This document shows, piece after piece, positions 23,150 to 38,808 of a stretch of DNA of 64,000 bases. A program made the position numbers and the translations under genes. Position 1 is the first letter of the stretch, and each line of letters opens with the position of its first letter. This stretch comes from Bifidobacterium tissieri (GTDB lineage: Bacteria; Actinomycetota; Actinomycetes; Actinomycetales; Bifidobacteriaceae): contig NZ_MWWV01000002.1 in the NCBI RefSeq assembly GCF_002259645.1, positions 1 to 64,000 on the forward strand, written 5' to 3'. The notes beneath the pieces were generated by a model. That model ran no database searches, was not told the DNA's origin, and was given only the letters and a program-made list of their open reading frames with translations.

Positions 23150-26044
23150 TCAGCGCTGAGCCTTGCGCCGGTTGAGCACGAACGCGCCACCGGCCACGAG
23201 GGCGAGCGCCGCGAAGACCGCCGCGCCGACGATGGCCGTGCCAGTGGCGGACAGTTTCGGTGTCTTCTTGGCGTTGGTCGTAGTCTTCGTCGTGTCGATC
23301 GTCTTGCCAGTTCCCGTCTGGGTGCCGGCGTTATTGGTGTCGCCCGGCTGCGAGGCGGCCGTACCGTCGTCCTTCTCGAACACGGCCTGGATGGACACGT
23401 CCTTGTTGGTCATGGCGAACGTGTTGTCCTTGACCGTGACACCGCCGTAGAGCACCTTCCACTCCTTGAAACGGTAACCGTCGTTCGGCGTGACGGTGAG
23501 TGTCACCTGATCGCCCTGAGCAGCGGTGGCAACGTTCGCGGATGCCGTGCCGTTGCCGTCACCGCTCACCTTGACCGCATACTTCACCTTCTGCGTGTTG
23601 GGCGTGCGCCACAGCTGGGTGCCGTAGAACGGATTGGCTGTGCCGATCAGCAGATAGTCGCTGGTCTTGGCGAAGATACGCAGACCATGGTTGTACCGGT
23701 CTCCAAAGCCGTTGTCGGTCAGGGTCTGCACGCTCACCTTGCCGTTGCTATCGGTGACGGTATACAGGTCAAAGCCGCGCTTGGAGGTCTTCAGATACTT
23801 GTACGACCTGGCATAGGCCTCAAGATTATCCTTGGTGGTGAGCTTGAGCAGCATGTCGTACAGGGGCTTCAGATTGTCGGGAACGGCAAGCTTACCGTAT
23901 TCGTCGAGCAGCTGATCATATGCCTCGCGGAAGCTCTGACCATCGGACGCCTTGGCACCGATCAGGGTGTCGAGCGTGTTGAGCTGGTTGTTGAGATCGT
24001 TGAGTCGATCGGCGAACGCGTTGTCGGTGATGGATCCGGGGACGATGGTGCCATCGTTGATTCCGGCAACGAGCTTGACCCTCTGGTCGTCTGTAAGGCT
24101 GACCTTGGCGTCGGATGTATTGGCGTTGCTGCCGGAATCCGCACTCATCGTCTGTGGCATGGTCTGTGCCTTGCGCTCAGACGCCTGTTCCACTGCCTGC
24201 TTGACGAGATCGGATGCGTCTGCGGATACGGTGTCGGGGGTTCTGGCGGAGAACGTTGCCGCACCGGCCGCGCCCGAATCGTTGCCGGAATCGTCGGGGC
24301 TGGCTGAACCGTCGGAATTGGTGGCATCCTTGATCAGCAGTTCAAGGAACACACGCAGATAGTTGATCTGACTCTTCCACTCCTCCGGCGTCATGTGGAT
24401 CAGATCGCCGTTGGTGAACTGGGCGATCGGTTCGAGTAGCGTCGTCGTGTCCATCGTGCCGATATACAACTTGTCTTCGTAGACGGTTGCCTGCCACGTG
24501 TACTGGTTCATGTGGGTGTCGTATCCGGTGCCCTTGCCGGAGATGCCGCCCTCGGGGAACATGTCGGTCGGGTCGCCTACCACGAGTTCGATGTTCTCGT
24601 TGGCATCCATACGATACAGGTTGATGGACTGCTCGAGGTTGGTGGCCTGCGTCACGAAGTTCTTCTGCAGTACAAAGCCCTGCAATGCGCTGGACACGTC
24701 GTTGTAGTCGCCGATGTACAGGTGGTTCTTGTATTTGACGAGCGTTGCCGCGCCGGCGCTGATGCGCGACGGGTCGATGCCATACGTGTACTTGGCGCCC
24801 TGTGTAGTGTCGCCCACCACGCGACTCCACGTCCAGCTGGAACGTTCGGTCGGATCACCGTTCACGGTTCCACGCCAGATGGCGAACGCCTTCTTGGTGC
24901 CCTGCGTGTTCTGATTGGCGGGTGTGCCAGTGCACACCACCACATAGAGCTGACCGTTGAATTCAATCACCTGGTAGATTCCGCCGCCCCCGTTGACATC
25001 GGTACGATGCCAGGCTGGCTCACCGCCGAAATCATCCATGGTGGCGATGGTCTTGAATGAGTCCTTGCCTGCGGACGGATCCTTGGAGGCGGTGAGGAAC
25101 ACGCCGTTGTTATCGAGCGCGCCGGCGATAAGCGTGCCGTTGAAATCACCGATCGCGCGGGTGGATGTGAACACGTTGTCGGCCACCAGTTTGTCGAAGC
25201 GGGCCTTGCCCTGCTCGCTGGTCGTCTTGTCATCGGACAGGATGCCCAGCGCATCGTACACGCAGGTGATCTTGTCGTTGTTTTCCGGATCGATCTGGTA
25301 GATCACCGGGAAACCGTTCTGCACGGACAGCGCAGTGGCGAGTTCACGCTGGTTGAGGTGCATGGTATCGACCACCATGCCCACGAAGTAGATCTTGCCG
25401 TCAAGCACGAGCGCGTCGCGGAACGTGGGCATGACACCGGTTTCGCGCGACATAAGAACCTTCGTCTCGCCGGTCTTCACGTTCACCTTGACAAGGATCC
25501 CGCCCGATTGCACGCCGTCGGGCTCTCCGAAGTACAGGTTGCCGTTGTACATGGTGTCCATGGCGGCTTTCATCGCCTCCGCGGACATGCCCGGCACGCT
25601 GTAATTGAGAATGGTGGAAATGCCCAGACCACCGTACATGGTGTTGATATACACCCAGTCGCCGTAGACGGCGGATGCGTAACTGTATGACTGGCCTCGG
25701 GCGCCATTGCCCTCGGCGCTCACACCCTGCTCATACGGTTTGACCAAACCGTTACCGGCATAGTCGACAATGCCGTCGTTGGTTTCCACACCGGAGCCGG
25801 CGTGCGAGATCTTACTGAATGTCATGCCGTTGCCGGCTGTGTAGGTGGTTGTGGGGTTGAGCGTGGATGCGGTTCCTTCCGCAGCCGATGCCACAGGGGC
25901 GATCAGCATGGCAATCGATGCCACGACTGCGGCCGCGACACCTGCGATACGACGTCCGGAGCGGCCGGAGCGGTCTCCCCCACTGATATTGCGTTTACTG
26001 CGATTATCGATATCCCCGATGCGTCTATGGCGAGATATGGCCAT
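23150..26044 (-). CDS. Large sortase-anchored surface protein
   Basis: A 964-residue secreted protein. The N-terminus is basic with a hydrophobic core ending VASAAEG, a signal peptide of about 55 residues. The bulk (about 60-600) has repeated strands of the VYGDWVYINT / KIYFVGMV / QLYVVVCTG / HLYIGDYND / KLYIGTMD kind, suggesting a beta-propeller-like fold. A Ser/Ala/Asp-rich linker follows (about 600-640), then a helical region. Next comes a Flg_new_2/PF18998-like bacterial repeat (TVTPNDGYRFKEWKV) and a Thr/Lys-rich stalk. The C-terminus is PKLSATG, a hydrophobic span and RRKAQR, a sorting signal with LSATG in place of LPXTG. Ribosome-binding site GAAGAAGGAAG. Likely a host- or glycan-interacting adhesin; ligand unknown. 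Confidence 0.8.
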   Translation of the reverse strand: MAISRHRRIGDIDNRSKRNISGGDRSGRSGRRIAGVAAAVVASIAMLIAPVASAAEGTASTLNPTTTYTAGNGMTFSKISHAGSGVETNDGIVDYAGNGLVKPYEQGVSAEGNGARGQSYSYASAVYGDWVYINTMYGGLGISTILNYSVPGMSAEAMKAAMDTMYNGNLYFGEPDGVQSGGILVKVNVKTGETKVLMSRETGVMPTFRDALVLDGKIYFVGMVVDTMHLNQRELATALSVQNGFPVIYQIDPENNDKITCVYDALGILSDDKTTSEQGKARFDKLVADNVFTSTRAIGDFNGTLIAGALDNNGVFLTASKDPSAGKDSFKTIATMDDFGGEPAWHRTDVNGGGGIYQVIEFNGQLYVVVCTGTPANQNTQGTKKAFAIWRGTVNGDPTERSSWTWSRVVGDTTQGAKYTYGIDPSRISAGAATLVKYKNHLYIGDYNDVSSALQGFVLQKNFVTQATNLEQSINLYRMDANENIELVVGDPTDMFPEGGISGKGTGYDTHMNQYTWQATVYEDKLYIGTMDTTTLLEPIAQFTNGDLIHMTPEEWKSQINYLRVFLELLIKDATNSDGSASPDDSGNDSGAAGAATFSARTPDTVSADASDLVKQAVEQASERKAQTMPQTMSADSGSNANTSDAKVSLTDDQRVKLVAGINDGTIVPGSITDNAFADRLNDLNNQLNTLDTLIGAKASDGQSFREAYDQLLDEYGKLAVPDNLKPLYDMLLKLTTKDNLEAYARSYKYLKTSKRGFDLYTVTDSNGKVSVQTLTDNGFGDRYNHGLRIFAKTSDYLLIGTANPFYGTQLWRTPNTQKVKYAVKVSGDGNGTASANVATAAQGDQVTLTVTPNDGYRFKEWKVLYGGVTVKDNTFAMTNKDVSIQAVFEKDDGTAASQPGDTNNAGTQTGTGKTIDTTKTTTNAKKTPKLSATGTAIVGAAVFAALALVAGGAFVLNRRKAQR

Positions 26045-26172
26045 GAATCTTCCTTCTTCATATGCCGAGGCTGACTCGATGGACGGGGGTACTGCTTCAT
26101 TGCGTCATTGCATCGGGTCGTACCGGCAGACCGTTGTACTGGTACCGTCCTCTGATGAGAACCAATCTCCAC

Positions 26173-26231: not shown

Positions 26232-26426
26232 CAATCTTCAATTTCTGAAGTATTTTCCATATCCTGCAGACGTCAATCTCCAAGTTCTGAAGTTGATCAC
26301 GACCAATAACGCGGTATGGGCGTTGGAATTCCAACGTCCATACCCCGAAACTCTTTCCCGGAGACTTCAGAACTCGGAGATTGATGGCTGTATGACGCCG
26401 AAATTACTTCAGAACTTGAAGATAGG
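26232..26426. repeat. Concentric triple-stem palindrome, copy A
   Basis: Three nested inverted pairs share one centre near 26329. The outer pair is CAATCTTCAATTTCTGAAG (26232) with ACTTCAGAACTTGAAGATAG (26406). The middle pair is CAATCTCCAAGTTCTGAAG (26274) with CTTCAGAACTCGGAGATTG (26365). The inner pair is GGTATGGGCGTTGGAA with TTCCAACGTCCATACC (26313-26344). The element ends 62 bases beyond the stop of the following minus-strand gene. A second copy lies at 33567. Confidence 0.8.
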
Positions 26427-26488: not shown

Positions 26489-27058
26489 TCAGGCGGCCGC
26501 GCGACGACGGTCGATCTCCTCCTGCAGTTTGAGCAGGTCGCGGATGGTGGACAGCGTGTGGAAGATGATCTCGCAACGGTGGGATGCGGCGTGCTCGCCG
26601 GTCAGCTGCTTGTGAATCAGTTCACGCTCCTCATCCTTTTCAGTGCCGTGAAGCGCCACGTTCATGCGTACGCAGAAGCCGACAGCCAGAGACTTCTCAT
26701 CCTCCGTGGCAAGCTCCTCGTGAAGCTCAAACGGCTTGTTCGTCGGATCCTCATGCGTCAGCAACATGGCCAACGCGGCAGGCACCGGTTCAACCTCCTG
26801 CGACACGTTGCGCAATATGCGAATAATGCTCTGATTGAGTTCGCCCTCCTCAACCGCTTCGATGAGCCGTTCCACATTGTCGGGCTTCAGGTCGGCATGG
26901 CATTGCTTCTGAATCTGCCGACGGATCGCGAAGGCGATAAGGAGACCAAGCATCGTGGCCTTCTGACGGCCGGGTTCGATGTGGCCTTGGTGGGAGTGGG
27001 AGGATTCGGATGCCTGCGACGACTGCGCGTCGCGCGGAGTCTGCTGTTCGCTTGTCAT
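26489..27058 (-). CDS. Hypothetical protein, 189 aa
   Basis: A mostly helical, acidic, soluble protein. Residues 1-35 are Ser/Gln/His-rich and likely disordered. A helix rich in Ala/Ile/Leu (KATMLGLLIAFAIRRQIQKQ) could be membrane-peripheral. The rest alternates charged helices (LIEAVEEGELNQSIIRILRNVSQEVE) and ends IDRRRAAA. No catalytic motif recognised. Start taken at 27058; the longer ORF to 27124 has a weaker context. It stands alone between the surface protein and a membrane protein. Confidence 0.6.
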   Translation of the reverse strand: MTSEQQTPRDAQSSQASESSHSHQGHIEPGRQKATMLGLLIAFAIRRQIQKQCHADLKPDNVERLIEAVEEGELNQSIIRILRNVSQEVEPVPAALAMLLTHEDPTNKPFELHEELATEDEKSLAVGFCVRMNVALHGTEKDEERELIHKQLTGEHAASHRCEIIFHTLSTIRDLLKLQEEIDRRRAAA

Positions 27059-27233
27059 GGTTTCCAGCCTAGTCCGCGGAACGCCGAGCCGCAGCCGTAG
27101 CGTACGGTATGTGGGCCGATTCACGCTGCGGCATGTTCACACGGGCGGTTGCAAGCCATCCTGTCATCGGCGCAGATCGCATGAATCTGCATATATCTCC
27201 AGACCGCTCATACGCATCCAGACCGATCGACGT

Positions 27234-28088
27234 CTACTTATACAGCGCTTCGACGCTCATGACATCATCCAAACCCGGCAACGATTCCCCAGAACGCGAG
27301 GTGCGCAATCGAGACAAGCTATAATTCCGCCGCTCAAAGCATTTCCGCACATCCTCAACGGGGACAGGCCGCCACGAGACCTCGCCAATGCGATCTCCTT
27401 CGACACGAAGCGTAACCCACGCCATACGATGTCGCTGCGTCCACCCGGGCATGGGATCGGGTTCACCGGTCAGAATCGTCCAATCTTCCGCGCTGACATA
27501 CGCCAGGCTCTCGACCTCGCAAGTGGGCAGATCGTTGCGGAATACGATTCGATACACCGGACTCTGTTCCACGTTGTCCTCACCATGCCAATCGCCATCC
27601 CACACCAGCGCAGTGCGGAAATCGTCGGTGTTCACGGCGACTATATGCGGATCGGCGAACACATCCGTCGCAGACGGTTCCCTGCTGGACCGTTTCCGCG
27701 AATACACCGCGTACACGGCCGCGATGATGGCGACAAGCAGCAAGAGGCCGGGAAGCGCCATATTCCCCCAATCGATCTCCCCCATCTGAATGCCCTCGCC
27801 GTACACGATCACCCATGTGCCTTCAAGCGCTTTGAATATGCCGAACAATCCGAGGACTCCGACCACCACGGCCACCAGAATCGCGAATACTCTTCCGGCT
27901 TCGTTATCGGTTTCCTTGCGCTTGATCTGGTCGCGTACTTCCAAAGCGGTTGTGCGCGATCCCGTCAGCCAGATTGGATTTTCGATCGGGCTCAGTCGCT
28001 CAGTAGACACCGTCCGTGAATCCCCATTTACACCTTCCATATACGCCCCCATGCCATGCATATACACCGGTTTGAGTTCCGGATTCAT
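27234..28088 (-). CDS. Membrane protein of unknown function, about 284 aa
   Basis: The N-terminal ~65 residues are polar. Two membrane helices follow (GRVFAILVAVVVGVLGLFGIF and MALPGLLLLVAIIAAVYAVY) separated by a short loop. A soluble C-terminal domain of about 150 residues contains VVWDG-type strands and RHRMAWVTLRVEGDRIGEVSWRP. The layout resembles DUF3592-like proteins, but I cannot confirm the family. The start is uncertain: ATG at 28088 is chosen over the ORF edge at 28115, and later ATGs are possible. It ends in a basic Arg/Ser segment before GLDDVMSVEALYK. Confidence 0.6.
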   Translation of the reverse strand: MNPELKPVYMHGMGAYMEGVNGDSRTVSTERLSPIENPIWLTGSRTTALEVRDQIKRKETDNEAGRVFAILVAVVVGVLGLFGIFKALEGTWVIVYGEGIQMGEIDWGNMALPGLLLLVAIIAAVYAVYSRKRSSREPSATDVFADPHIVAVNTDDFRTALVWDGDWHGEDNVEQSPVYRIVFRNDLPTCEVESLAYVSAEDWTILTGEPDPMPGWTQRHRMAWVTLRVEGDRIGEVSWRPVPVEDVRKCFERRNYSLSRLRTSRSGESLPGLDDVMSVEALYK

Positions 28089-28145
28089 TTTCTCTCGGAT
28101 ACGGCAACAAGACAACGGCCTCGAATCATCCGTACACCCACCCGG

Positions 28146-28415
28146 TTGATCTGGATATACCCGGATTCTTATTCTGGGTATACCCGGTTGATCTGGGTAT
28201 ACCCGGTTAGTTTAGGAGTGGAAAAGAGGGTGCTAGTGACATGGTTTTACCCAGAGCCATCCGTCATGACCCGGTTTGACCCAGATCCCTGTCCGGTTTG
28301 ACCCCGAATCATGTCCTATTAAACCCAGATCTTTGTCCTGTTCTACCCAGAACGGAGTTGGGTGAGTTCTGATATGTCCGTCTTGCCCCAGATTGCTGTC
28401 CTGATTGACCCAGAG
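28146..28415. repeat. GGGTATACCC-family repeat cluster 2
   Basis: Three tandem copies around GATCTGGGTATACCCGGTT occur at 28146-28210, with the perfect palindrome GGGTATACCC. Half-units of the GTCCGGTTTGACCCAGATC type follow at 28236-28415, spaced about 25-30 bases. Same family as clusters at 3541 and 51903. Confidence 0.75.
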
Positions 28416-28492
28416 GGATGATCCGTGGTTGAGGATGATGTCATCTTGGAATTCGCTGTCTGAACAGTCGTTCGATTCTTTGCTGTGGGCCC

Positions 28493-28583
28493 GGAATCAT
28501 CCCCGTGCATAGAGGGGAAACACCGAAATGACTGATCACCACAAGATATCCGCTGCGAATCATCCCCACGCGAGGGGAACACT
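28493..28583 (-). CRISPR. Decayed two-repeat type I-E-like CRISPR remnant
   Basis: On the minus strand two degenerate repeats read GTGTTCCCCTCGCG...GGGGATGATTCG (about 28556-28583) and GTGTTTCCCCTC...CGGGGATGATTCC (about 28493-28523). They are separated by 32 bases, the normal I-E spacer size. Stem CCCC/GGGG and the GATGATTC end parallel the main array, but the sequence differs, so this is an independent or eroded array in opposite orientation. No further repeat is visible on either side. Confidence 0.55.
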
Positions 28584-28623
28584 TAGACGTCGAACCGATT
28601 GGAAAACTGATCGGGAAAATCAA

Positions 28624-28659
28624 AAGGTCCGCACTCCCCTATCGGAGAATGCGGACCTT
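28624..28659. terminator. Terminator hairpin downstream of the ABC exporter
   Basis: AAGGTCCGCA pairs exactly with TGCGGACCTT around a 16-base loop, with an A-run on the left that is a T-run for minus-strand transcription. It lies about 140 bases past the last exporter gene. Confidence 0.6.
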
Positions 28660-28797
28660 GATCCGGGATGCGGAGATCTCAGCGCGATGACGACGCAGTT
28701 GCATCGTCACGCGCAACCACGAGCAACCACGCGTAACCGGGCAACATATAGCCACGCAACCGACATCACGCACAGTCGCGCAACCGCCCCTAATCCG

Positions 28798-30864
28798 CTA
28801 ATCCAGCTCCACGGCGCCCGTGTACAGCTGGTAGTACTCACCCTTCTGGGCGATGAGCTCGTCGTGCGAACCGCGCTCGATGATGTTGCCATGATCGAGC
28901 ACCATGATCACGTCGGAGTTGCGCACGGTGGAGAGGCGATGCGCGATCACGAACACGGTACGCCCCTTCATCAGGTTGTCCATGCCGGCCTGCACCACTT
29001 CCTCGGTGCGGGTGTCGATGGACGAGGTCGCCTCGTCGAGGATCAACGCGGGCGGATCGGCCACGGCGGCTCGCGCGATGGAGATCAGCTGCCGCTGCCC
29101 CTGGGACAGGCCGCTGCCGTCACCCTCGAGTACGGTCTGGTATCCCTGCGGAAGCATGCGGATGAAACTGTCCGCGTTCACCAGTCGCGCCGCCTCGATG
29201 CACTCTTCGTCGGTGGCATCCAGACGACCGTAGCGGATGTTGTCCATCACGGTGCCGGTGAACAGCGTCACGTCCTGCAGCACCACGCCGAGCGAGCGGC
29301 GCAGGTCCGGCTTGCGGATGCCCTTGATGGAGATGCCGTCGTAGAGGATCTGGCCTTCCTGAATGTCGTAGAACCGGTTGATCAGGTTGGTCACGGTGGT
29401 CTTGCCGGCACCGGTGGCACCGACGAGCGCGATCTTCTGTCCCGGCTTGGCGAACCAGGTGATGTCGTGCAGCACGGGCTTGTCGGGGTTGTAGCCGAAC
29501 GTCACGTTGGTGAAGCGCACGTCGCCGCGCAATAGCGTGAGGCGTCCGTCGGGCGAGGTGATCGCCGATTCGCGGGCCTTCACCGCCACCTCGCGGGCCT
29601 TGCCGTGCAGTTTCTCGGCGGCGCGCAGCGAACGAGTGCCGTCGTCGCCCTCCTCGCGCTTCCATGCCCAGTGGCCGGTCTCGCGATCCGTCTCGGTCAT
29701 GGTGCGGCCGTCCTCGCCGAGCTCCACGTTCACCAGGGTCACGGTGCCACCGTCGGTTTCGACCGGCTCGTCCATCAGCTGGAAGATGCGCGATGCGCCG
29801 GCGAGCGCCATCATCACCATGTTGAGCTGCATGGAGACCTGCCCGATCGGGTTGATGAACGAGCGGCTGAGCGTGAGCAGCGAGATGAGCGTGCCGAGCG
29901 TGAGCGGGCCCGCGCCGGAGAGGCCGAAGTTGCCGACGCCGGCGAGCGCCATGGCTCCGCCGATGATGGCGAGCAGGATGTAGAGCATGTAGCCCATGTT
30001 GCCCACAACCGGCATGGTGACGTTGCCCCAGGTATTGGCTTCGGCGGAGGCTTCGAAGAGCTCCTGGTTCTTCTGGTCGAAGGTCTTCTGGGTGGTGTCC
30101 TCGTGGTTGAACACCTTGATGACCTTCTGGCCGTTGACGGATTCCTCGACGAACGCGTTGACGTCGCCGAGCCAGTGCTGCTGCTTGACGAAGTAGCGTC
30201 CGGCACGACCGACGATCGCACGGATGATCATGAACAGCATCACGGTGAACAGCAGCACGAACGCGGTGATCGGCACGCTGAGCCAGAGCATGGAGATGAC
30301 GGCCGCGATCGAGGAGATGGCTGCGGCGAACATCTGCGGGAATGACTGGCTGATGGCCTGTCGCAGCGTGTCGGTGTCGTTCGTGTAGCGGCTCATGATG
30401 TCGCCGTGTTCGTTGGTGTCGAAGTAGCGGATGGGCAGACGCTGCTGGTGGGCGAACATGTCGTCTCGGATTTTCTTGAGCGTGCCCTGTTCGACGGCGA
30501 CGACGAGCCACTGCCAAAGCCATCCGCAGAAGATGCCGGCCACGTACAGGCATCCGATGAGGGTGATGGCGCGCAGCAGCGGCCCCCAGTCGGGGTTGGC
30601 CTGGCCGACCATCGGCAGGATGTACGTGTCGATGAGGGTCTGCAGGAACAGTGCGGATCCTGCCTGTGCGGCGGCTCCGACGAGGATGCAGACGACGATG
30701 ACGACCACGTGCACCTTGTATTGCAGAATGTATCCGAAGATGCGTTTTATGGTGCCGGGTGCGGGCTTGCCGATGCCGGGTTTGCGATTGCCGAACGCGT
30801 TCTTGGTGGCGGACGCGGACTGTGCCTGGTTGTTCTGCGCGGTCTGGTTGTTCTGTTCCGTCAT
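28798..30864 (-). CDS. ABC exporter half-transporter, consensus ATP site
   Basis: A 688-residue fusion of six membrane helices and one ATPase domain (multidrug exporter type, MdlB/LmrD/BmrD-like). Walker A is GATGAGKTT, the signature is GLSQGQRQL, and Walker B with the catalytic glutamate is LILDEATSSID. So its own Walker residues are canonical. A charged insert (about residues 385-425, rich in Arg/Glu/Lys) separates the membrane and ATPase domains. The ATG overlaps the stop of the upstream half-transporter (TAATG), indicating coupled synthesis of a heterodimer. Likely substrate: hydrophobic drugs or lipids, from family. Confidence 0.92.
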   Translation of the reverse strand: MTEQNNQTAQNNQAQSASATKNAFGNRKPGIGKPAPGTIKRIFGYILQYKVHVVVIVVCILVGAAAQAGSALFLQTLIDTYILPMVGQANPDWGPLLRAITLIGCLYVAGIFCGWLWQWLVVAVEQGTLKKIRDDMFAHQQRLPIRYFDTNEHGDIMSRYTNDTDTLRQAISQSFPQMFAAAISSIAAVISMLWLSVPITAFVLLFTVMLFMIIRAIVGRAGRYFVKQQHWLGDVNAFVEESVNGQKVIKVFNHEDTTQKTFDQKNQELFEASAEANTWGNVTMPVVGNMGYMLYILLAIIGGAMALAGVGNFGLSGAGPLTLGTLISLLTLSRSFINPIGQVSMQLNMVMMALAGASRIFQLMDEPVETDGGTVTLVNVELGEDGRTMTETDRETGHWAWKREEGDDGTRSLRAAEKLHGKAREVAVKARESAITSPDGRLTLLRGDVRFTNVTFGYNPDKPVLHDITWFAKPGQKIALVGATGAGKTTVTNLINRFYDIQEGQILYDGISIKGIRKPDLRRSLGVVLQDVTLFTGTVMDNIRYGRLDATDEECIEAARLVNADSFIRMLPQGYQTVLEGDGSGLSQGQRQLISIARAAVADPPALILDEATSSIDTRTEEVVQAGMDNLMKGRTVFVIAHRLSTVRNSDVIMVLDHGNIIERGSHDELIAQKGEYYQLYTGAVELD

Positions 30865-32864
30865 TATCGTGCACCTCCTTCGGCGGTGGGAGCGTTGTGG
30901 ACTTCGTGGGCCAATGACTGTTCCTCCTCGGGCAGTTCGGTTTCGGCGCTGTTCAGCGCATTGCCCGCGGAACGATCGACCGGCGAGGTAGCGTCATCCG
31001 TCACGTCCTCCGGCCGGCCCTGGTTCTTGGTCTGGGATTCGTAGATGGACCGGTATTCCTCGCAGGTGAGCAGCAGTTCGTCATGCGTGCCGCGTGCCAT
31101 GATGCGACCGCAGTCCATGACGAGGATCATGTCGGATTCCTGCACCGAGGAGACACGCTGGGCGATGATGATCTTGGTGGTGTCCGGGATCTCGTTGTGG
31201 AACGCCTCACGGATGAGTCGGTCGGTCTTGGTGTCGACGGCGCTGGTGGAGTCGTCGAGGATGAGGATCTTCGGCTTCTTCAGCAGTGCGCGCGCGATGC
31301 ACAATCGCTGGCGCTGGCCACCGGACACGTTGGTACCGCCCTGTTCGATGTACGTGTCGTACTTGTCGGGGAATTCCTGGATGAAGCTGTCGGCCTGGGC
31401 GAGCTGGCAGGCGTGCCGCAGCTCCTCGTCGGTGGCGTTCGGGTTGCCCCAGCGCAGGTTTTCGGCGATGGTGCCGCTGAACAGCACGTTCTTCTGCAGA
31501 ACCATGGCCACCTGGTCGCGCAAGGCTTCAATATCGTATCGGCGTACATCGAGACCGCCGACCCGCAGGGATCCGGCGGATACGTCGTACAGACGGGGTA
31601 TGAGCTGAACAAGCGAGGATTTGGAGGAGCCGGTGCCGCCGACGATGCCGATGGTCGCGCCGGACGGGATGTTCAGGTCGATGTCGTCGAGCACGGGCTT
31701 TTCCGAACTGTCGGAGTAGCGGAAGGTCACGTGGTCGAAGTTGATCGAACCGTCGGCCACGGTCATGACGGGCTGGTCGGGATCGGTCACGGTGCTTTCC
31801 TCCTGCAGCACCTGGCAGATGCGTTCGGCGGACGCCTGCGAGATGATCACCATGACGAAGATCATGGACAGCATCATCATGGCCATGAGGATCTGCATGG
31901 CGTAGGTGACGAGCGCGGTCAGATCACCGGTGGTCAAGCCCAGTGCGGCGTTGTTGCCGGAGTCAGCGATCTGCACGGCACCCATCCACGAGATGAGGAT
32001 CATGGAGCCGTAGACGCAGAGCATCATAAGCGGCATGTTGAAGCTCATGATGCGCTCGGCCTTGATGAAGTCCTTGAAGATGCGCTTGGAGATGCGGTCG
32101 AACTTGTTGATCTCGAACGATTCGCGGTTGTACGACTTGACCACGCGGATGCCCTGCAGGTTCTCGTCAACCACGTTGTTCAGCTCATCGTACGTGTGGA
32201 ACACACGCTCGAACACGGGGTGGACGAGCACGGCCAGACCACACAGACCAAGTCCGAGAATCGGGATGCAGGCGAGGAACACCATGGAGATGCTCGGGCT
32301 GATGCGGAACGAGAAGATCCACGCGACGATGACCATGATCGGCGCACGCACGCCCATGCGGATCATCATGGCGTACGCGTTCTGCAGATTAGTCACGTCG
32401 GTGGTGAGCCTGGTGATGATCGAACCGGTGGAGAACCGGTCGATGTTGGTGAAGCTGAAGTCCTGCACCTTTTCAAACTGGTCATGACGCAGGTTCTTGG
32501 CGAAACCGGCGGCGGCGATGGCGGCGAACTTTCCGGCAAGGAAGCCGCAACCCAGCGAAACCAGCGAACAGCACAGCAGAATCAGGCCGAACTTGATGAT
32601 GGCGGGCATGCTGCCGCCCGTGATGCCCTGATCGATCAGCGTCGCCATGATCGTGGGGATCACGATCTCCAGCACGCTTTCGATGATCACGAACACCGGA
32701 GCCAGCAGACTGTGCTTCCGGTATTCGCGCAGGGACCTTCCCAGCGTACGGATCACATGCTTGGGCTTGTCCGGTTCAACGGCCTTGCGCGCCTTTTCGA
32801 TGGCCGCTTCGGTGGCGGCTGCGTCATCGGCCGGCCGCGTCTTCGTGTTTGCGGTAGTGCTCAC
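30864..32864 (-). CDS. ABC exporter half-transporter, degenerate ATP site
   Basis: A 666-residue half-transporter (LmrC/BmrC-like) partnering the downstream gene. Walker A is GGTGSSKSS, the signature is NVSGGQRQRL, and Walker B reads ILILDDSTSAVD. The catalytic Glu that should follow is Asp, the hallmark of the degenerate nucleotide site in heterodimeric exporters. Starts with GTG overlapping the MarR stop (GTGA). The N-terminal ~35 residues are Ala/Lys-rich and cytosolic; the C-terminal ~60 residues are acidic and low complexity. Confidence 0.92.
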   Translation of the reverse strand: MSTTANTKTRPADDAAATEAAIEKARKAVEPDKPKHVIRTLGRSLREYRKHSLLAPVFVIIESVLEIVIPTIMATLIDQGITGGSMPAIIKFGLILLCCSLVSLGCGFLAGKFAAIAAAGFAKNLRHDQFEKVQDFSFTNIDRFSTGSIITRLTTDVTNLQNAYAMMIRMGVRAPIMVIVAWIFSFRISPSISMVFLACIPILGLGLCGLAVLVHPVFERVFHTYDELNNVVDENLQGIRVVKSYNRESFEINKFDRISKRIFKDFIKAERIMSFNMPLMMLCVYGSMILISWMGAVQIADSGNNAALGLTTGDLTALVTYAMQILMAMMMLSMIFVMVIISQASAERICQVLQEESTVTDPDQPVMTVADGSINFDHVTFRYSDSSEKPVLDDIDLNIPSGATIGIVGGTGSSKSSLVQLIPRLYDVSAGSLRVGGLDVRRYDIEALRDQVAMVLQKNVLFSGTIAENLRWGNPNATDEELRHACQLAQADSFIQEFPDKYDTYIEQGGTNVSGGQRQRLCIARALLKKPKILILDDSTSAVDTKTDRLIREAFHNEIPDTTKIIIAQRVSSVQESDMILVMDCGRIMARGTHDELLLTCEEYRSIYESQTKNQGRPEDVTDDATSPVDRSAGNALNSAETELPEEEQSLAHEVHNAPTAEGGAR

Positions 32865-33418
32865 GCGTTCTCCTCCTTCGTGTTCTTCTTGATGTCGTAC
32901 TTATTGTTCTGATTGCGGTGATTCACGATGTCGTCGTCATGGTCCTCCGAGGCCGCGCCGTGCTCTCCCCGTTCGAACCGTTGCTGCGCCGCGGCGATGT
33001 TGTCGCGCATTCGGCGCACATAGTCGTAAAGGGCGCGCTCCTCCTCTTCGGAGAATCCTCCGACCAGCTGCCGTTCCATGCGCTCGCCGTTCGCTTTGAG
33101 GTCGGCGACGATGGCGTCAGCCTTCGCCGTCAGCACGATCTTCTTCAGCCGTGCATCGTGGGCGACCGGTTCGCGGATGATCAGCCCTTTTTTCTCCATC
33201 AGTCCCAGCACCCGCGACGCCGTGGAACGGGTGATACAGAATTTCTGCTCGATGGTGTGCTGGTAGATGTCCGTGCCACGGTTGCGGGCGAGGAACATGA
33301 TGATGCGCGCATTGCCCCCCGTGGCGTCCGCGGCCGATTCTGGCATGGTCTCACCGAGATACCGGTCGACGGACTTACATAGGGCGCGCAGTTCAAGACT
33401 CAAAAAGCGTTTGTCCAT
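32861..33418 (-). CDS. MarR-family regulator of the ABC exporter
   Basis: A 185-residue winged-helix repressor and first gene of the marR-ABC-ABC operon. Core: DIYQHTIEQKFCITRSTASRVLGLMEKKGLIIREP, then the wing HDARLKKIVLTAKADAIV. The C-terminal tail is unusually long, acidic, then Asn/Lys-rich. The ATG at 33418 follows AAGGAG; an upstream in-frame ATG lacks a site. Two GTTG/CAAC palindromes 44 bases apart lie about 70-130 bases upstream and are likely its operators, so autoregulation and drug-induced expression are expected. Confidence 0.9.
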   Translation of the reverse strand: MDKRFLSLELRALCKSVDRYLGETMPESAADATGGNARIIMFLARNRGTDIYQHTIEQKFCITRSTASRVLGLMEKKGLIIREPVAHDARLKKIVLTAKADAIVADLKANGERMERQLVGGFSEEEERALYDYVRRMRDNIAAAQQRFERGEHGAASEDHDDDIVNHRNQNNKYDIKKNTKEENA

Positions 33419-33488
33419 GCGGCTCCTTGATCTCACACCCTCGCGGTCGACGACTTCTCGTCATTGCCGTCAATCCGCAATAGGAAAT

Positions 33489-33546
33489 GTTGTATATGCA
33501 ACGAGACACTCTAATACGTATCGTATACAACAGTTGCAAATGCAAC
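33489..33546. promoter_or_regulatory. Paired MarR operator candidates
   Basis: GTTGTATATGCAAC (33489-33502) and GTTGCAAATGCAAC (33533-33546) share palindromic arms GTTG...CAAC. They are 44 bases apart, about four helical turns, just upstream of the marR-exporter operon. Confidence 0.6.
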
Positions 33547-33566: not shown

Positions 33567-33760
33567 CAATCGCCGAGTTCTGTGCGGATTATTCGGCTTG
33601 CAGACATCAATCCGCGAGTTCTGAGCGGAGAATTTGCCTTACCCCAAGTACGACCCTTGATATTGCAAGCCTCATACTTCGCTTTTCGTCCCGGCAACGC
33701 ACAGAACTCGAAGATTGGTGTCTGCACTCCTTTGAAATCCGCACAGAACTCGGAGTTAGG
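33567..33760. repeat. Concentric triple-stem palindrome, copy B
   Basis: Same architecture as 26232-26426. The outer pair is CAATCGCCGAGTTCTGTGCG (33567) with CGCACAGAACTCGGAGTTAG (33740). The middle pair is CAATCCGCGAGTTCTGAGCG (33608) with CGCACAGAACTCGAAGATTG (33698). The inner pair is AAGTACGACCCTTG with CAAGCCTCATACTT (33646-33679). All are centred near 33663. It ends 6 bases from the stop of the giant activase gene. Confidence 0.8.
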
Positions 33761-33765
33761 TCAAG

Positions 33766-36700
33766 TCACGCCGCTTCGGACAGGCTCGGCGTGGACTGGG
33801 TGTCGCCGCCGTCCTTGCCGGCCGCCGTGCCCGACGTGCCGTGCTCCTGCTCCTGTTTGCGCTCGTCGTTCTCCACGGCATCCGCATCCACGCCAGCGGC
33901 CTCGGCGGCCTGACGCTTGGCCTCGGCCTGCTTGGCGGCGGAGATCATGAGCTTGATGCGGTTGAGCTGGTTCGCCTGCGAAGCGCCCGGATCGTAATCG
34001 ATCGACACGATGTTCGCCTCGGGGTGCTGTCGGCGGATCTCGCCGAACATGCCGCGTCCGGTCACGTGGTTCGGCAGGCAGGCGAACGGCTGCGCACACA
34101 CCACGTTCGGCGCGCCGGACTCAATGAGTTCGAGGATCTCGGCGGTCAGCAGCCAGCCCTCGCCGGCCTGCACGCCCACCGACGTGACCTCGCCGGCCTT
34201 CTTCACCAGCTCGGCCATCGGCAGATCCTGCTGGAACTTGCCGTGCGCCAGATCGATGGCCCGGCGCACCGGGTTGAGGTAGCGATCCAGTCCCCAGCGC
34301 ATGAGCGCATACAGTTTCTGGTTGCCGCCCATGCCAAGGTTGTGCTCGTTCCAATCCGTGATGTACGGGCGGGTGGTCATGAACTCCATGATGCCGGGCA
34401 CCACGGCCTCGCATCCCTGGGATTCGATCACATCGACCACATGGTTGTTCGCATCGGGATGGTACTTGACGAGGATCTCGCCCACCACGCCCACGCGCGG
34501 CTTGCGCGGAATGTCACGCAACGGCAGCGCATCGAACGACTTGACGATCTCCTTGAGCAGGACCGGGTACGGCAGGTATCCCTTGCCGATCTTCGCCTTG
34601 GCGGTCTTCGAGAACCCATGGTGCTCGATCACCTCGCGGGTGATCGTGTCCCACATGCGGTACAGCTCGTTCGCGCTGCCCTTGACCTTCTCGTACGGAC
34701 GCACGCGGTACAGGCACTTGAGGAACATGTCGCCCACGATCAGCGCCTTGATCGCACGATGCAGCAGCGCCGGGGTCGGCGTGAAGCCGGGGTTGGATTC
34801 GAGTCCCTGCGTGCTCAGCGCGATCACCGGCACCTGCGGGTATCCGGCGTCGATGAGCGCCTTGCGGATCAGACCGAAGTAGTTCGTGGCACGGCACATA
34901 CCACCGGTCTGCGTGATGGCGAGCGCCACCTTGTCCGGATCGTACTTGCCTTCGACGATGGCGTTGACGAGCTGGCCGACGACCATGATGGCCGGGTAGC
35001 AGGCATCGTTGTTCACGTACTTGAGGCCGAGTTCCACGTCCTCGCGGCTGGCATGTTCGAGGACGTCGAACTTGTAGCCGCCGGAACGGATCACGGATTC
35101 GATGAGCGACATGTGCATGGGGCTCATCTGCGGCGCCACGATGGTGTAGTCCTTCTTCATGGACTTGCCGAAGGGGATGCGGTTGGCGTACTTCGACATG
35201 GTGGCGGTGTTGTGCGCGTTCTTCTTGGTCTGCGTGCTGGCCTTGGGGTTGCCGTCCATGACGGCGTCGAGCAGCACCTGACGGCCGGGCGTGGGGGCCT
35301 TGGAACCGGTACGGCGGAATTCGCCGGTACGGCCCTTCGGCGCGCTACCCGCTCTGGTGCCGGCACCCGCACCTGGCGCTCCGGCACCCGTTCCGGCAGC
35401 ACCAGCACCCGCGCCAAGCGCGATCCTGTACGGCTTATCCACGAATCCGGCGTCCAGGTTGGCGGCCGGCATGGTAGCCTCCACCTCGGCCTGGGCGGCT
35501 TCAAGCTGCGCCTTGGCCTCCTCGAACCGGGCCTGCGCCTCGGCGAGACGATTCTCGGATTCGGTTTCGCGACGCACCTGCTCGGCGGTGATCTGCGCGG
35601 CGTGCTCCTCACGCTTCTTGTTGGCCTCACGCTCCTCCACGGCGGCCTTGAGCGAGCGCAGTCGGATCTTGGCGGCACCCAGGTTCGACACCTCGTCGAT
35701 CTTGAGCAGCGTATACACGTCGGCCTTGTCCGCGAGGATCTCGGAGACCTGATCGGTGGTGATGGCGTCAAGTCCGCAGCCGAAGGAGTTGAGCTGCACG
35801 AGCTCGAGTCCCGGGTAGGAGGCCACAAAGTTCGCGGCCGCGTACAGACGCGAATGGTAGGCCCACTGGTTGGTCACACGCAACGGCATGCGGGTGACCT
35901 TGCGGTCGCCCACGTGACGGAATCCGGCGGAGTCCTTGGTCCGCGGGTTCTTCTCCCCCTCGGCGAGATAGTCGCTCAGATGCAGGTCCTCGCCGGGCTG
36001 CAGCTCGCAGATCGAATCCTCGGACAGCACGACCATGCCGAGCGCACAGATCGTCTCGGGAATGCCGTGGTTGATCTCCGGATCGATGTGGTAGGGGCGT
36101 CCGGCGAGCACGATGCCACGGCAGTTGTGCTCCTTCATGTAGGCGAGCGCGCGCAGACCCTCCTGCTGCACGTCGTGCTTGAACAGCTTGTCCTCGGCGT
36201 ACGCCGCCTTGACGGCCTGTTCCGCCTCCTCACGCGTGACGTTGGCCCACGCGAACTCCTCGACGATACGGTCGACCATGAGGTCGTGGTTGGCGAGGTT
36301 GAAGTAGGGGCGCATGTAGCGGATCGACGGGTCGCGCAGTTCGGGCATGTTCGCACCGATCACGACCGGATAGTTGGCCACGACCGGGCAATTGTAGTGG
36401 TTGTCCGTGTTCTCGACCAGATTCTCCTCGTAGCTCACGCACGGGTAGAAGATCGTCTTGACGCCCTTGTGCAGCAGCCACTTGATGTGGCCGTGCACGA
36501 GCTTGGCCGGGTAGCAGATGTTCTCGGACGCGATGGAGTCGATGCCCGTCTCGAACAGTTCGTGGTTGGACCGGCCGGAGATCATCACCTTGAAGCCAAG
36601 GCTGGTGAGCAACGTGAACCAGAACGGGTAGTTCTCATACATGTTGAGCACGCGCGGGATGCCGATCTCGCCGCGGGTGGCCTTCTTGTCGGTGAGCCTG

Positions 36701-38808
36701 CGGTAGGCGAAGCACCGCTTGTACTTGTATTCGTACAGGTTGGGGCGGTCGCTGCGCTTGCGTTTGCTGTCGCCGCCGCGCTCGCAGCGGTTGCCGGTCA
36801 CGTAGCGGGAGCCGTCGGCGAACGTGGTGATGGTGAGCTTGCAGTGGTTCTGGCACAGCTTGCACACGTCACGTTCGGAGGTCATCGACAGGTTGTCGAG
36901 TTCGTCGCCGGAGAGGATCGAGGAGCGCTTGTCCGGATCGTCATCGTCGTTGTAGTGCATGCGCGCGGTGAGGGCGGCGCCGAACGCACCCATGAGGCCG
37001 GCGATGTTTGGTCGGGTCACTTCGCGCTCAGTGAGCAGTTCGAATGCGCGCAGCACAGCGTCATTGAGGAAGGTGCCGCCCTGCACGACCACGGTGTCGC
37101 CGAGGTCGCCGGCGTCACGCAGCTTGATCACCTTGTACAGGGCGTTGCGCACGACGGAGTAGCACAGGCCGGCGGCGATGTTTTCGATCGACGCGCCTTC
37201 CTTCTGCGCCTGCTTGACGGACGAGTTCATGAACACGGTGCATCGCGAGCCGAGGTCGACCGGGTGGTCGGAGGCGAGCGCCTTCTGCGTGAATTCCTGG
37301 ATGCTCAGTCCCATGGACTGGGCGAAGGTCTGCAGGAACGATCCGCAGCCGGACGAGCATGCCTCGTTGACGGCGATCGAGTCGATCACGCCGTCGTTGA
37401 TGGCGAGGTATTTCATGTCCTGTCCGCCGATGTCGATTACGGCGGTGACGCCGGGGCTTACCATTTCCGCACCGCGATAGTGGGCCATGGTCTCGACCAC
37501 GCCTTCGTCGAGGTGCAGGCCGGTGGTGATCAGTCCTTCGCCGTAGCCGGTGGCGCAGCTACGGGCGATGTACGCGTCGTCCGGCAGTTCGCTTTGGATT
37601 TTCTTGACGATGTTGACGGCGGCGGTCAGCGGGCTGCCTTCGTTGTTGGCGTAGCTGGACCAGACGATTTCACGATCGTCGTTGACGAGTGTGGCCTTGA
37701 TGGTGGTGGAGCCCGCGTCGATGCCGAGGAAGTGCGGTCCGTGGGCGCCTTCGAGCGTGCCGATGTGGATGTGTTCGCGGTGGTGACGCTCGTTGAAGCG
37801 TTCGCGATCCTCTTCGGTGTTGAACAGCGGAGGCATGGTGGGCGTGTTGCTCGGCAGGTTCTTCAGGTTTTCCAGCGCCTGGAGGATGTCGGTGAGCGTG
37901 CGCGCCTCGTAGTGGACGGTGCCTTCCTCGTTCTGTTCGGAGTCCTCCTGTCCGGCGAGCAGCGCGGCGCCGTATGCCACGTACAGGTGTGCGTCCTCGG
38001 GGGTGATGAATTCCTTGACGCGATCCTTGAGCGCCCGGCGGAATGCCTCGCGCAGTTCGGAGAGGAAGAACAGCGGGCCTCCGAGGAAGATCACGGTGCC
38101 GCGGATCGGGCGTCCGGAGGACAGGCCGGCGATGGTCTGCGTGGCCACGGCCGTGAAGATGGATGCGGCGAGGTCGGGTTTGGCCGCGCCGTCGTTGATG
38201 AGCGGCTGGAGATCGGTTTTGGCGAACACGCCGCATCGCGAGGCGATCGGGTAGAGCGTCTCGTAGTTCTTGGCCATGTTGTTCAGACCTGTGGCGTCGG
38301 TGTCGAGCAGTGTGGCCATCTGGTCGATGAACGCACCGGTGCCGCCTGCGCATGAACCGTTCATGCGCTGTTCGGGTGTGGGCTTGAGATACGTGACCTT
38401 GGCGTCCTCGCCGCCGAGTTCGATGATCACGTCGGCCTGCGGATACTTGGCGTCGATCGCCACGGTTTCGGCGATGACCTCCTGTGCGAACGGCACGTGG
38501 AGGTTGTCGGCGAGGCCAAGGCCACCGGATCCGGTGATGGACAAGCGTACGGGTTCGTCGCCGCGTCCCAGTTCCTCGAGATGATGGTGGATGTCGGTGA
38601 GCAGTTCGGCCACCGTGGCACGCACGTTGGCGTGATGTCGCCGATAGTCGGCGTAGAGAATGTGCTGGCCGGGGGCGGCCAGCGGCGATTCGTCTCCCCC
38701 GTTTTCCTCGGTCTGGACGCCGTCCTTATCCAGGACCACCGCCTTCACCGTTGTCGATCCAATATCCAGACCGATCCTGATGCAGTCGTTCGTCTTCAAC
38801 TCCGGCAT
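33766..38808 (-). CDS. Giant acyl-CoA dehydratase activase-like protein
   Basis: A single 1680-residue protein with two BadF/HgdC-type ASKHA ATPase modules. The first starts near residue 10 (GLDIGSTTVKAVVLD) and the second near 365 (GIDAGSTTIKATLV). Both contain the cluster-ligand-type Cys motifs (CAGGTGAFIDQM; ACSSGCGSFLQTFAQ). A Cys-rich module follows (VCKLCQNHCKL, then CERGG, about 690-730), then a DUF2229-like region. A C-terminal domain resembles HgdB-type dehydratase subunits (MCRATNYFGLI; CAQPFACLPNHVTGRGMFGEI). Between them lies a helical coiled-coil stretch and a Gly/Ala low-complexity linker. Members of this family activate radical dehydratases, but no dehydratase gene is adjacent. 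The physiological substrate is unknown. Confidence 0.85.
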   Translation of the reverse strand: MPELKTNDCIRIGLDIGSTTVKAVVLDKDGVQTEENGGDESPLAAPGQHILYADYRRHHANVRATVAELLTDIHHHLEELGRGDEPVRLSITGSGGLGLADNLHVPFAQEVIAETVAIDAKYPQADVIIELGGEDAKVTYLKPTPEQRMNGSCAGGTGAFIDQMATLLDTDATGLNNMAKNYETLYPIASRCGVFAKTDLQPLINDGAAKPDLAASIFTAVATQTIAGLSSGRPIRGTVIFLGGPLFFLSELREAFRRALKDRVKEFITPEDAHLYVAYGAALLAGQEDSEQNEEGTVHYEARTLTDILQALENLKNLPSNTPTMPPLFNTEEDRERFNERHHREHIHIGTLEGAHGPHFLGIDAGSTTIKATLVNDDREIVWSSYANNEGSPLTAAVNIVKKIQSELPDDAYIARSCATGYGEGLITTGLHLDEGVVETMAHYRGAEMVSPGVTAVIDIGGQDMKYLAINDGVIDSIAVNEACSSGCGSFLQTFAQSMGLSIQEFTQKALASDHPVDLGSRCTVFMNSSVKQAQKEGASIENIAAGLCYSVVRNALYKVIKLRDAGDLGDTVVVQGGTFLNDAVLRAFELLTEREVTRPNIAGLMGAFGAALTARMHYNDDDDPDKRSSILSGDELDNLSMTSERDVCKLCQNHCKLTITTFADGSRYVTGNRCERGGDSKRKRSDRPNLYEYKYKRCFAYRRLTDKKATRGEIGIPRVLNMYENYPFWFTLLTSLGFKVMISGRSNHELFETGIDSIASENICYPAKLVHGHIKWLLHKGVKTIFYPCVSYEENLVENTDNHYNCPVVANYPVVIGANMPELRDPSIRYMRPYFNLANHDLMVDRIVEEFAWANVTREEAEQAVKAAYAEDKLFKHDVQQEGLRALAYMKEHNCRGIVLAGRPYHIDPEINHGIPETICALGMVVLSEDSICELQPGEDLHLSDYLAEGEKNPRTKDSAGFRHVGDRKVTRMPLRVTNQWAYHSRLYAAANFVASYPGLELVQLNSFGCGLDAITTDQVSEILADKADVYTLLKIDEVSNLGAAKIRLRSLKAAVEEREANKKREEHAAQITAEQVRRETESENRLAEAQARFEEAKAQLEAAQAEVEATMPAANLDAGFVDKPYRIALGAGAGAAGTGAGAPGAGAGTRAGSAPKGRTGEFRRTGSKAPTPGRQVLLDAVMDGNPKASTQTKKNAHNTATMSKYANRIPFGKSMKKDYTIVAPQMSPMHMSLIESVIRSGGYKFDVLEHASREDVELGLKYVNNDACYPAIMVVGQLVNAIVEGKYDPDKVALAITQTGGMCRATNYFGLIRKALIDAGYPQVPVIALSTQGLESNPGFTPTPALLHRAIKALIVGDMFLKCLYRVRPYEKVKGSANELYRMWDTITREVIEHHGFSKTAKAKIGKGYLPYPVLLKEIVKSFDALPLRDIPRKPRVGVVGEILVKYHPDANNHVVDVIESQGCEAVVPGIMEFMTTRPYITDWNEHNLGMGGNQKLYALMRWGLDRYLNPVRRAIDLAHGKFQQDLPMAELVKKAGEVTSVGVQAGEGWLLTAEILELIESGAPNVVCAQPFACLPNHVTGRGMFGEIRRQHPEANIVSIDYDPGASQANQLNRIKLMISAAKQAEAKRQAAEAAGVDADAVENDERKQEQEHGTSGTAAGKDGGDTQSTPSLSEAA

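Follow-up and report, generated by a model that had tools for sequence, protein, structure and literature searches.

Among described systems, the closest to the elements reported here are the REPINs, in which an inverted pair of short units is set at a conserved distance in intergenic DNA with a covarying hairpin between them; the unit of these REP-RAYT systems is lineage-specific and thought to co-evolve with the transposase (PMC3116915, excerpt). REP sequences usually number more than 100 copies per genome (PMC2817692, excerpt). Bacterial MITEs such as Correia/NEMIS, ERIC, RUP, and RPE are ∼100–200 bp long and mainly intergenic, and most have terminal inverted repeats (PMC2229807, excerpt). 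Mobile integrase cassettes (MIC), or recombinase-in-trio (RIT) elements, of Bifidobacterium longum have a 96-bp inverted repeat and a palindrome at their boundaries (PMC2430713 and PMC3414803, excerpts), and hairpins near stop codons have been described as intrinsic terminators and hairpin clusters (PMC8355165, excerpt).

The 64-kb window (the whole stretch of DNA that was analyzed) contains two elements, A and B, belonging to a family of ∼195-bp intergenic elements found in some twenty bifidobacterial species, whose layout is rigid and whose units are species-specific. These elements contain the inverted pair of one short unit at a conserved distance by which a REPIN is recognized, and they resemble REPINs as excerpted in PMC3116915 in their intergenic position and in the covarying hairpin between the units. 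Unlike REPINs, they have two units per side, 42 bp apart, a central core common to two genera, and units that are replaced at one site between species, and unlike REP sequences they are few, with 13 complete copies in the window's own genome (G000), 18–19 in B. callimiconis (G001), and 13 in B. vansinderenii (G008). Their length, intergenic position, and long stem-loop potential are those of MITEs (PMC2229807, excerpt), from which they differ in an internal second pair of units, a strict 42-bp phasing, units that change between species, and target-site duplications that at ≥5 bp are not clearly in excess. A half element (∼97 bp; one lies in G000 at C34:36614) is similar in length to the 96-bp MIC repeat, and both are bifidobacterial, but the repeat and palindrome sequences look different from those in the MIC excerpts when compared by eye only, and in place of three tyrosine recombinase genes there are ∼84 bp between the inner cores and no overlap with a called gene. 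Intrinsic terminators differ from the 195-bp element, which has coordinated units and, in A and B, no stem followed by a T tract. We file the family among interspersed palindromic elements as a new variant, possibly a class of its own. For a four-unit mirror element we found no Rfam family at gathering score and no matching description among the titles and abstract openings of the best-ranked literature matches, which agrees with the original prediction that no element of this form had been described.

Elements A and B

Element A spans positions 26232–26425 and element B 33567–33759 of the window; both had been placed correctly by the original prediction, with the right-hand end of each set one base too far. 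Each comprises two CAATCTYCGAGTTCTG-type direct units 41–42 bp apart, a central palindrome, and two inverted units (Table 1). The units of A at 26232 and 26410 (outer) and at 26274 and 26368 (middle) share with the central palindrome a center at 26328.5, and those of B at 33567, 33608, 33702, and 33744 are centered on 33662.5. Ten matches to the unit CAGAACTCGGAGATTG with ≤3 mismatches occur in the window against 0.50 expected (100 shuffles, maximum 3), and eight of these are the units of A and B, bearing out the earlier suggestion that outer and middle arms are copies of one unit. The inner stem of B, by contrast, had been taken to be entirely different in sequence from that of A, and proves to be the family core GTAYG..TTGnnATTnCAA..CATAC in diverged form. 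Folding is far better than in shuffled sequence for A as DNA (z = −10.1) and for B as RNA (z = −8.9), with 0 of 200 shuffles equally good in either case.

Table 1. Positions of the parts of elements A and B in the window, and two groups of family loci
Feature	Position or loci	Strand	Remarks
A left outer unit	26232..26255	-	CAATCTTCAATTTCTGAAGTATTT on +; AAGT type
A left middle unit	26265..26293	-	Conserved TGCAGAC lead; 42 bp from outer unit
A central palindrome	26310..26347	.	Core TTGGAATTCCAA
A right middle unit	26364..26392	+	Inverted
A right outer unit	26402..26425	+	Inverted
B left outer unit	33567..33590	-	TGCG type
B left middle unit	33599..33627	-	AGCG variant of TGCG type; 41 bp from outer unit
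B central palindrome	33646..33679	.	Diverged copy of family core
B right middle unit	33698..33726	+	Inverted
B right outer unit	33736..33759	+	Inverted
Two-element loci	L097, L104, L088, L110, L111, L113, L116, and the window		
tRNA-adjacent TTGGAATTCCAA loci	L312, L313, L323–L325, L329, L333		

The gene at 33766–38808 has its stop codon 7 bp from the right outer unit of B. An Rfam search of the window returned three tRNAs only; within A and B no family reached gathering score. Neither element contains an intrinsic terminator (GC-rich stem plus T run). Each has a single terminator-like site nearby, at 26026–26045 and 33533–33546, respectively, which for the A and B loci scanned is about as many as in shuffled sequence.

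Two further features of the window were noted by eye. Repeated TTGCATATGCAAC-like palindromes at 33477–33546, upstream of a MarR-family gene (32861–33436), have counterparts at this position in eight of the nine genus genomes, G003 being without them, and are likely the operator of the MarR-family gene itself. Two CRISPR-repeat-like stretches (GTGTTCCCC...GGGGATGATTC) lie at 27125–28797, between gene X (26489–27124) and an ABC transporter gene.

Copies in the Window's Clade

BLAST and a gapped pattern located copies beyond A and B. A tolerant scan of fetched regions, built around the layout of A and B, counted 45 complete elements in four genomes, G004 contributing one to the copies given above; additional copies were recognized subsequently, one in G001 (L446, bringing its total to 19, the highest seen in a genome) and two in G004 (L380, L445). 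The spacing between cores is exactly 42/84/42 bp in 36 of the 45, the other nine deviating by 1–2 bases; 43 have spacings of 41–42/84/41–42 bp and two have a middle spacing of 85 or 86. The concentric four-unit geometry is therefore real and recurrent, and the genome search proposed with it gave symmetric units, the opposite of a scatter. The constancy of the spacing suggests selection.

The first unit pattern matches four of nine genomes of the genus (G000, G001, G008, and, once, G004), and G007 and G002 (one poorer copy) also carry elements of the family. Among named genome contigs, a scan that may omit the window's own genome, the four-unit pattern was found in 39 stretches, 25 of them in B. 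callimiconis and B. vansinderenii and 14 elsewhere, mostly of other lengths. Copies within one genome are diverged in sequence. At the site of B an element is present in G000, G001, and G008; none was seen by eye after the gene next to B in six other genomes of the genus, in one of which (G003) the next gene also differs, and none is present at the site of A in G001 and G008. Single copies are thus dispensable, since element-free sites exist both at the place of A and after the gene neighboring B. Other inverted repeats were seen by eye after the B-site gene in G005, G006, and G007 (L279, L280, and L283, respectively), such as the GCGTTCCCTGCC pairs of G005 and G006.

Two specificity types coexist in this clade. 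All eight fetched loci that contain two elements, at most five of them independent, hold one of TGCG type and one of AAGT type (Table 1).

Pairing and Covariation

Alignment positions were compared in the 36 copies of exact geometry, which have conserved blocks and, in each arm, two spacers of constant length and variable sequence. The spacers do not pair: at positions 25–32 pairing is 0.278 within an element versus 0.316 between elements, and at positions 63–74 it is 0.345 versus 0.333. When the copies are split by type (20 and 16 elements), a value at least as high as that observed arises in 649 and 750 of 1000 permutations. Blocks have a small within-type pairing excess (1 and 11 of 1000 permutations); three variable pairs in the middle unit of the TGCG type show it most strongly (0.817 vs. 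0.526).

Strong covariation at positions 17–20 and 59–62, which are either TGCG-like or AAGT-like, spans all four units. The tetrad concerned, the four bases after GTTCTG, is the same in every unit of 27 of the 45 elements; in the other 18, one or two of its letters vary in at least one unit with no mixing of types. In all, 44 of 45 have a tetrad of one type over the four units, and the G004 element has a GGGT/GGGC form of its own. Pairing alone does not demand that four units agree.

The central palindrome (∼44 bp) behaves differently among lineages. Its positions 5–11, counted from the center, covary within genomes in G027, G051, G067, and the AGGGG group (1–3 of 1000 shuffles), whereas covariation is weak in G000, G001, and G008 (0.540 vs. 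0.502; 55 and 49 of 1000 shuffles); in G081, positions 5–11 do not covary (233 of 1000) and positions 15–21 do (1 of 1000). Spacer covariation in the wider family is absent or marginal (51 of 1000, AGGGG group). The covariation analysis that had been proposed thus finds covariation in the units, all four together, and in the center but not in the variable spacers. The accompanying argument, that inner stems differing in sequence yet still paired indicate selection for structure, finds support in the centers of relatives, only weak support in those of the window's clade, and none in the spacers.

In 23 elements located between tandem genes, G·T and A·C mismatches number 47:37 in units, 38:41 in the center, and 61:42 in spacers, and because the two are nearly equal neither RNA strand is favored. 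Taken together, the unpaired spacers, the coordinated units, and the parity of G·T and A·C favor recognition as double-stranded DNA over action as a transcript.

The Family across Bifidobacteria

The center TTGGAATTCCAA occurs in 89 of 189 genomes of the bacterial family, its reversed sequence in three. A fuller center pattern, GTA-N7-TGNAATTNCA-N7-TAC, is found in 22 of the 189 (2 of 16 genera), at most 11 times per genome, and its reversed control in none. Some TTGGAATTCCAA sites are short hairpins and others have the four-unit layout with different units. Our collection of distinct elements, some of them half-degenerate, numbers 96 and draws on 20 genomes. It is partly hand-chosen because loci were dropped by eye: in one group of 34 loci, 13 with arms were kept and 21 without clear arms dropped. 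Two center matches of G058 lie outside the set, and duplicates (the G081 mirror contig; G095, which equals G076) were removed. An offset of 42 gives the best direct repeat in 76 of the 96 left arms and 85 of the 96 right arms. Among the genomes concerned, we take G036, G065, G041, and G027 to be B. breve, B. longum, B. kashiwanohense, and B. angulatum, respectively.

Match positions on the 236-kb contig C1 of G081 mirror each other about its center, as though assembly had artificially produced an inverted duplicate, and the nine matches of this genome count as seven because the contig is its own inverted copy. At the seven loci checked with ARAGORN, from several genomes of the family, the TTGGAATTCCAA palindrome lies within ∼30 bp of tRNA genes at the apex of a short hairpin (Table 1). 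Rfam gave 17 microRNA matches on seven test loci, all below gathering score. Upstream of a distant homologue of gene X in G093 (L304:1030–1300), a TTGGAATTCCAA palindrome stands between TGGTACG/CGTACCA inverted pairs ∼33 bp apart, perhaps a different type of array.

Replacement of Units between Species

Units of one element have a 12-bp core identity of 0.875; the figure is 0.815 when elements sharing a genome are compared and 0.446 for elements of different genomes. These values come from 78 elements in which the units match one another at ≥0.5; in the other 18 of the 96 the units agree poorly. The change can be followed at a shared site between the formate-tetrahydrofolate ligase gene fhs (PF01268) and a MIF-like gene (PF01187, just under cut-off). 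Both flanks are present in G036, G065, G045, G076, G095, G067, and G091. Only the MIF side is present in G081, where the other neighbor is a sortase gene. Among short loci, one of G051 (L352) shows the MIF side and those of G002 and G004 (L378, L380) the ligase side. The core at this site is AGGGGCT in G036 and G065, AGGGGTA in G045, and TATGGCA in G067, and the MIF-side locus of G081 also has TATGGCA. Of seven loci compared, six have a within-element core identity of 0.78–0.89 (0.78–0.88 for G036, G045, and G067) and the half-degenerate G091 has 0.49, whereas G067 or G081 share only 0.36–0.50 with the four AGGGG loci (0.39–0.46 for G067 against G036 and G045). At the fhs/MIF site, all four units differ together between species.

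A loose frame is retained in the units, often C[T/A]ATCT at one end and GATT after the outer units, while a core of ∼10 bp differs between species and is common to the four units and to most copies of a genome. A held frame with a species-specific core is the pattern that a site co-evolving with a protein would present. Intermediate-looking units exist, such as GTTCTGGGGT in G004, and may be the trace expected of stepwise co-evolution of this kind.

Placement Relative to Genes

Elements are intergenic and mostly near gene 3′ ends; none of the 45 complete elements overlaps a gene called with a simple codon model. A second set of 38 elements (one from G001, one from G004, three from G007, and the rest from another genus) contains 27 that could be placed and 11 that could not. 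Of those placed, 20 lie between convergent genes, compared with 12 of the 91 gaps of ≥200 bp that served as background (p = 4e-9), the background being drawn from the window's genus and the set mostly from another; many of these elements represent one site in several species, and when collapsed to independent loci they comprise eight convergent, five tandem, and one divergent (n = 14; p = 0.0007). The first set, from the window's clade, has no convergent enrichment (7 of 38 placed elements convergent, 28 tandem, 3 divergent; p = 0.43), and divergent gaps are mildly avoided (p = 0.049). Scanning of 20 flanking genes found metabolic, transport, or housekeeping functions, with no common partner and no autonomous relative among them.

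Interpretation

We consider it somewhat probable that the element is a double-stranded-DNA docking array near gene ends for a putative DNA-binding protein that co-evolves with it in each species. A sequence-specific DNA-binding protein, or pair of proteins, would read the ∼24-bp unit. Two units 42 bp apart would be separated by four turns of B-DNA and so lie on one face of the DNA, and the mirroring of this pair across a palindromic, hairpin-prone center would allow a symmetric four-site nucleoprotein complex to form over ∼195 bp. We infer both that the protein exists and binds the units and that co-evolution with it caused them to change. The host would keep the element near gene ends, and its placement raises the doubtful possibility of a gene-end boundary, in which a protein roadblock around a terminator-like hairpin separates neighboring transcription units. 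Against this interpretation stand the lack of convergent enrichment in the window's clade and of an internal terminator-like site in A and B. It also has to contend with covariation in the center and in part of the middle unit of TGCG type, which double-stranded binding alone does not explain, with flanking genes that have no partner in common, with sites that are free of an element, and with the 18 of 96 elements whose units agree poorly.

The main rival to the docking array is a palindromic miniature element, REPIN- or MITE-like and mobilized in trans, whose units would be bound by a transposase or recombinase with its gene elsewhere, an enzyme that would spread the copies and co-evolve with them. 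Mobility would account for intergenic copies scattered differently in near relatives, and hence for a turnover of sites, as well as for species-specific units, but not for elements that persist at a kept site across species while their units are replaced, and copies within one genome have diverged. Copies have blocks in common but not spacers. REPINs, too, are inverted units a conserved distance apart, with a hairpin that covaries and a transposase that co-evolves (PMC3116915, excerpt), although no more than 19 copies per genome were seen here and queries of the phage and plasmid collections gave no match. Identical 3-mers at the flanks of the 45 elements are somewhat more frequent than in shuffles (0.489 vs. 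0.354, SD 0.064), 4-mers less clearly so (0.178 vs. 0.107, SD 0.043), and at ≥5 bp no clear excess of duplications remains (5-mers 0.044 vs. 0.019, SD 0.019; no 6-, 8-, or 9-mers). A tyrosine recombinase common to the three copy-rich genomes and near an element in G000 is in keeping with mobility; the lack of a clear element beside its orthologues is not. On balance we judge this explanation unlikely.

Under the original prediction the element would be a structured RNA, or a hairpin at the end of a transcript, with pairing as the object of selection. Very low folding energies relative to shuffles, the covarying center of relatives, the position close to 3′ ends of genes, which are convergent in the second set, and TTGGAATTCCAA cores close to tRNA genes are all compatible with this; a hairpin so selected would, however, have paired spacers, would need no agreement of outer with middle units, and should have G·U clearly in excess of A·C, and the absence of an Rfam family at gathering score at A and B, with sub-threshold microRNA models only at the seven test loci, likewise makes it improbable. 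Inverted repeats can correct each other, and palindromy could be kept without function by template-switch correction between arms, as the seven perfectly palindromic G027 centers listed might suggest. Such a process cannot place one core in unlinked copies of a genome and has left the spacers between blocks uncorrected, and we give it hardly any credence.

Returning to the docking array, we tentatively suggest a broader reading, less probable than the array itself, of a host-maintained class of four-site mirror elements, located at gene ends throughout the bifidobacteria, in which a per-genome “address” is rewritten in all units while spacing and center stay fixed, forming a boundary or chromosome-organizing system with a recognition code that changes from species to species. 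If the cores track a DNA-binding protein, comparison of species would yield protein-site pairs that form a natural series within a beneficial gut genus, and at the shared fhs/MIF site the in-place rewriting of a multi-site DNA code becomes testable. The family may also reveal a bifidobacterial gene-end or chromosome-organizing element absent from the libraries searched.

Candidate Protein Partners

No candidate binding protein was upheld among the genes examined. Gene X has homologues in G000, G001, G004, and G008, the genomes with the first unit pattern, and was rejected as cognate factor because G007 and G002 carry elements and have no match to it; its distant homologues comprise a second one in G008 and others in four genomes of another genus, two of them in settings that look phage-like by eye. 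A 964-aa protein encoded beside A resembles a cell-surface protein, with an InlB B-repeat domain plus a LAVTG sortase motif that scores below cut-off. It was rejected, as no DNA-binding domain was found in it and close homologues occur only in G000, G001, and G008 of the nine genomes, with weaker second homologues in G001 and G008.

The lead is a 284-aa tyrosine recombinase (PF00589), 93% identical among the copy-rich G000, G001, and G008. Its gene lies ∼0.6 kb from an element in G000, and no clear element was found in the 8 kb fetched for the orthologues in G001 and G008, the best scores there (52 and 56) being near those of other loci and equaled by some known elements. Separately, in G001 two AAGT-type elements (L292–L293, C23:194810–215912) bracket an insert of ∼20.7 kb with cas genes (Cas_CT1975, Cas2), situated between homologues of window regions 26489–27124 and 28798–30864, an arrangement that no more than hints at elements acting as attachment sites.
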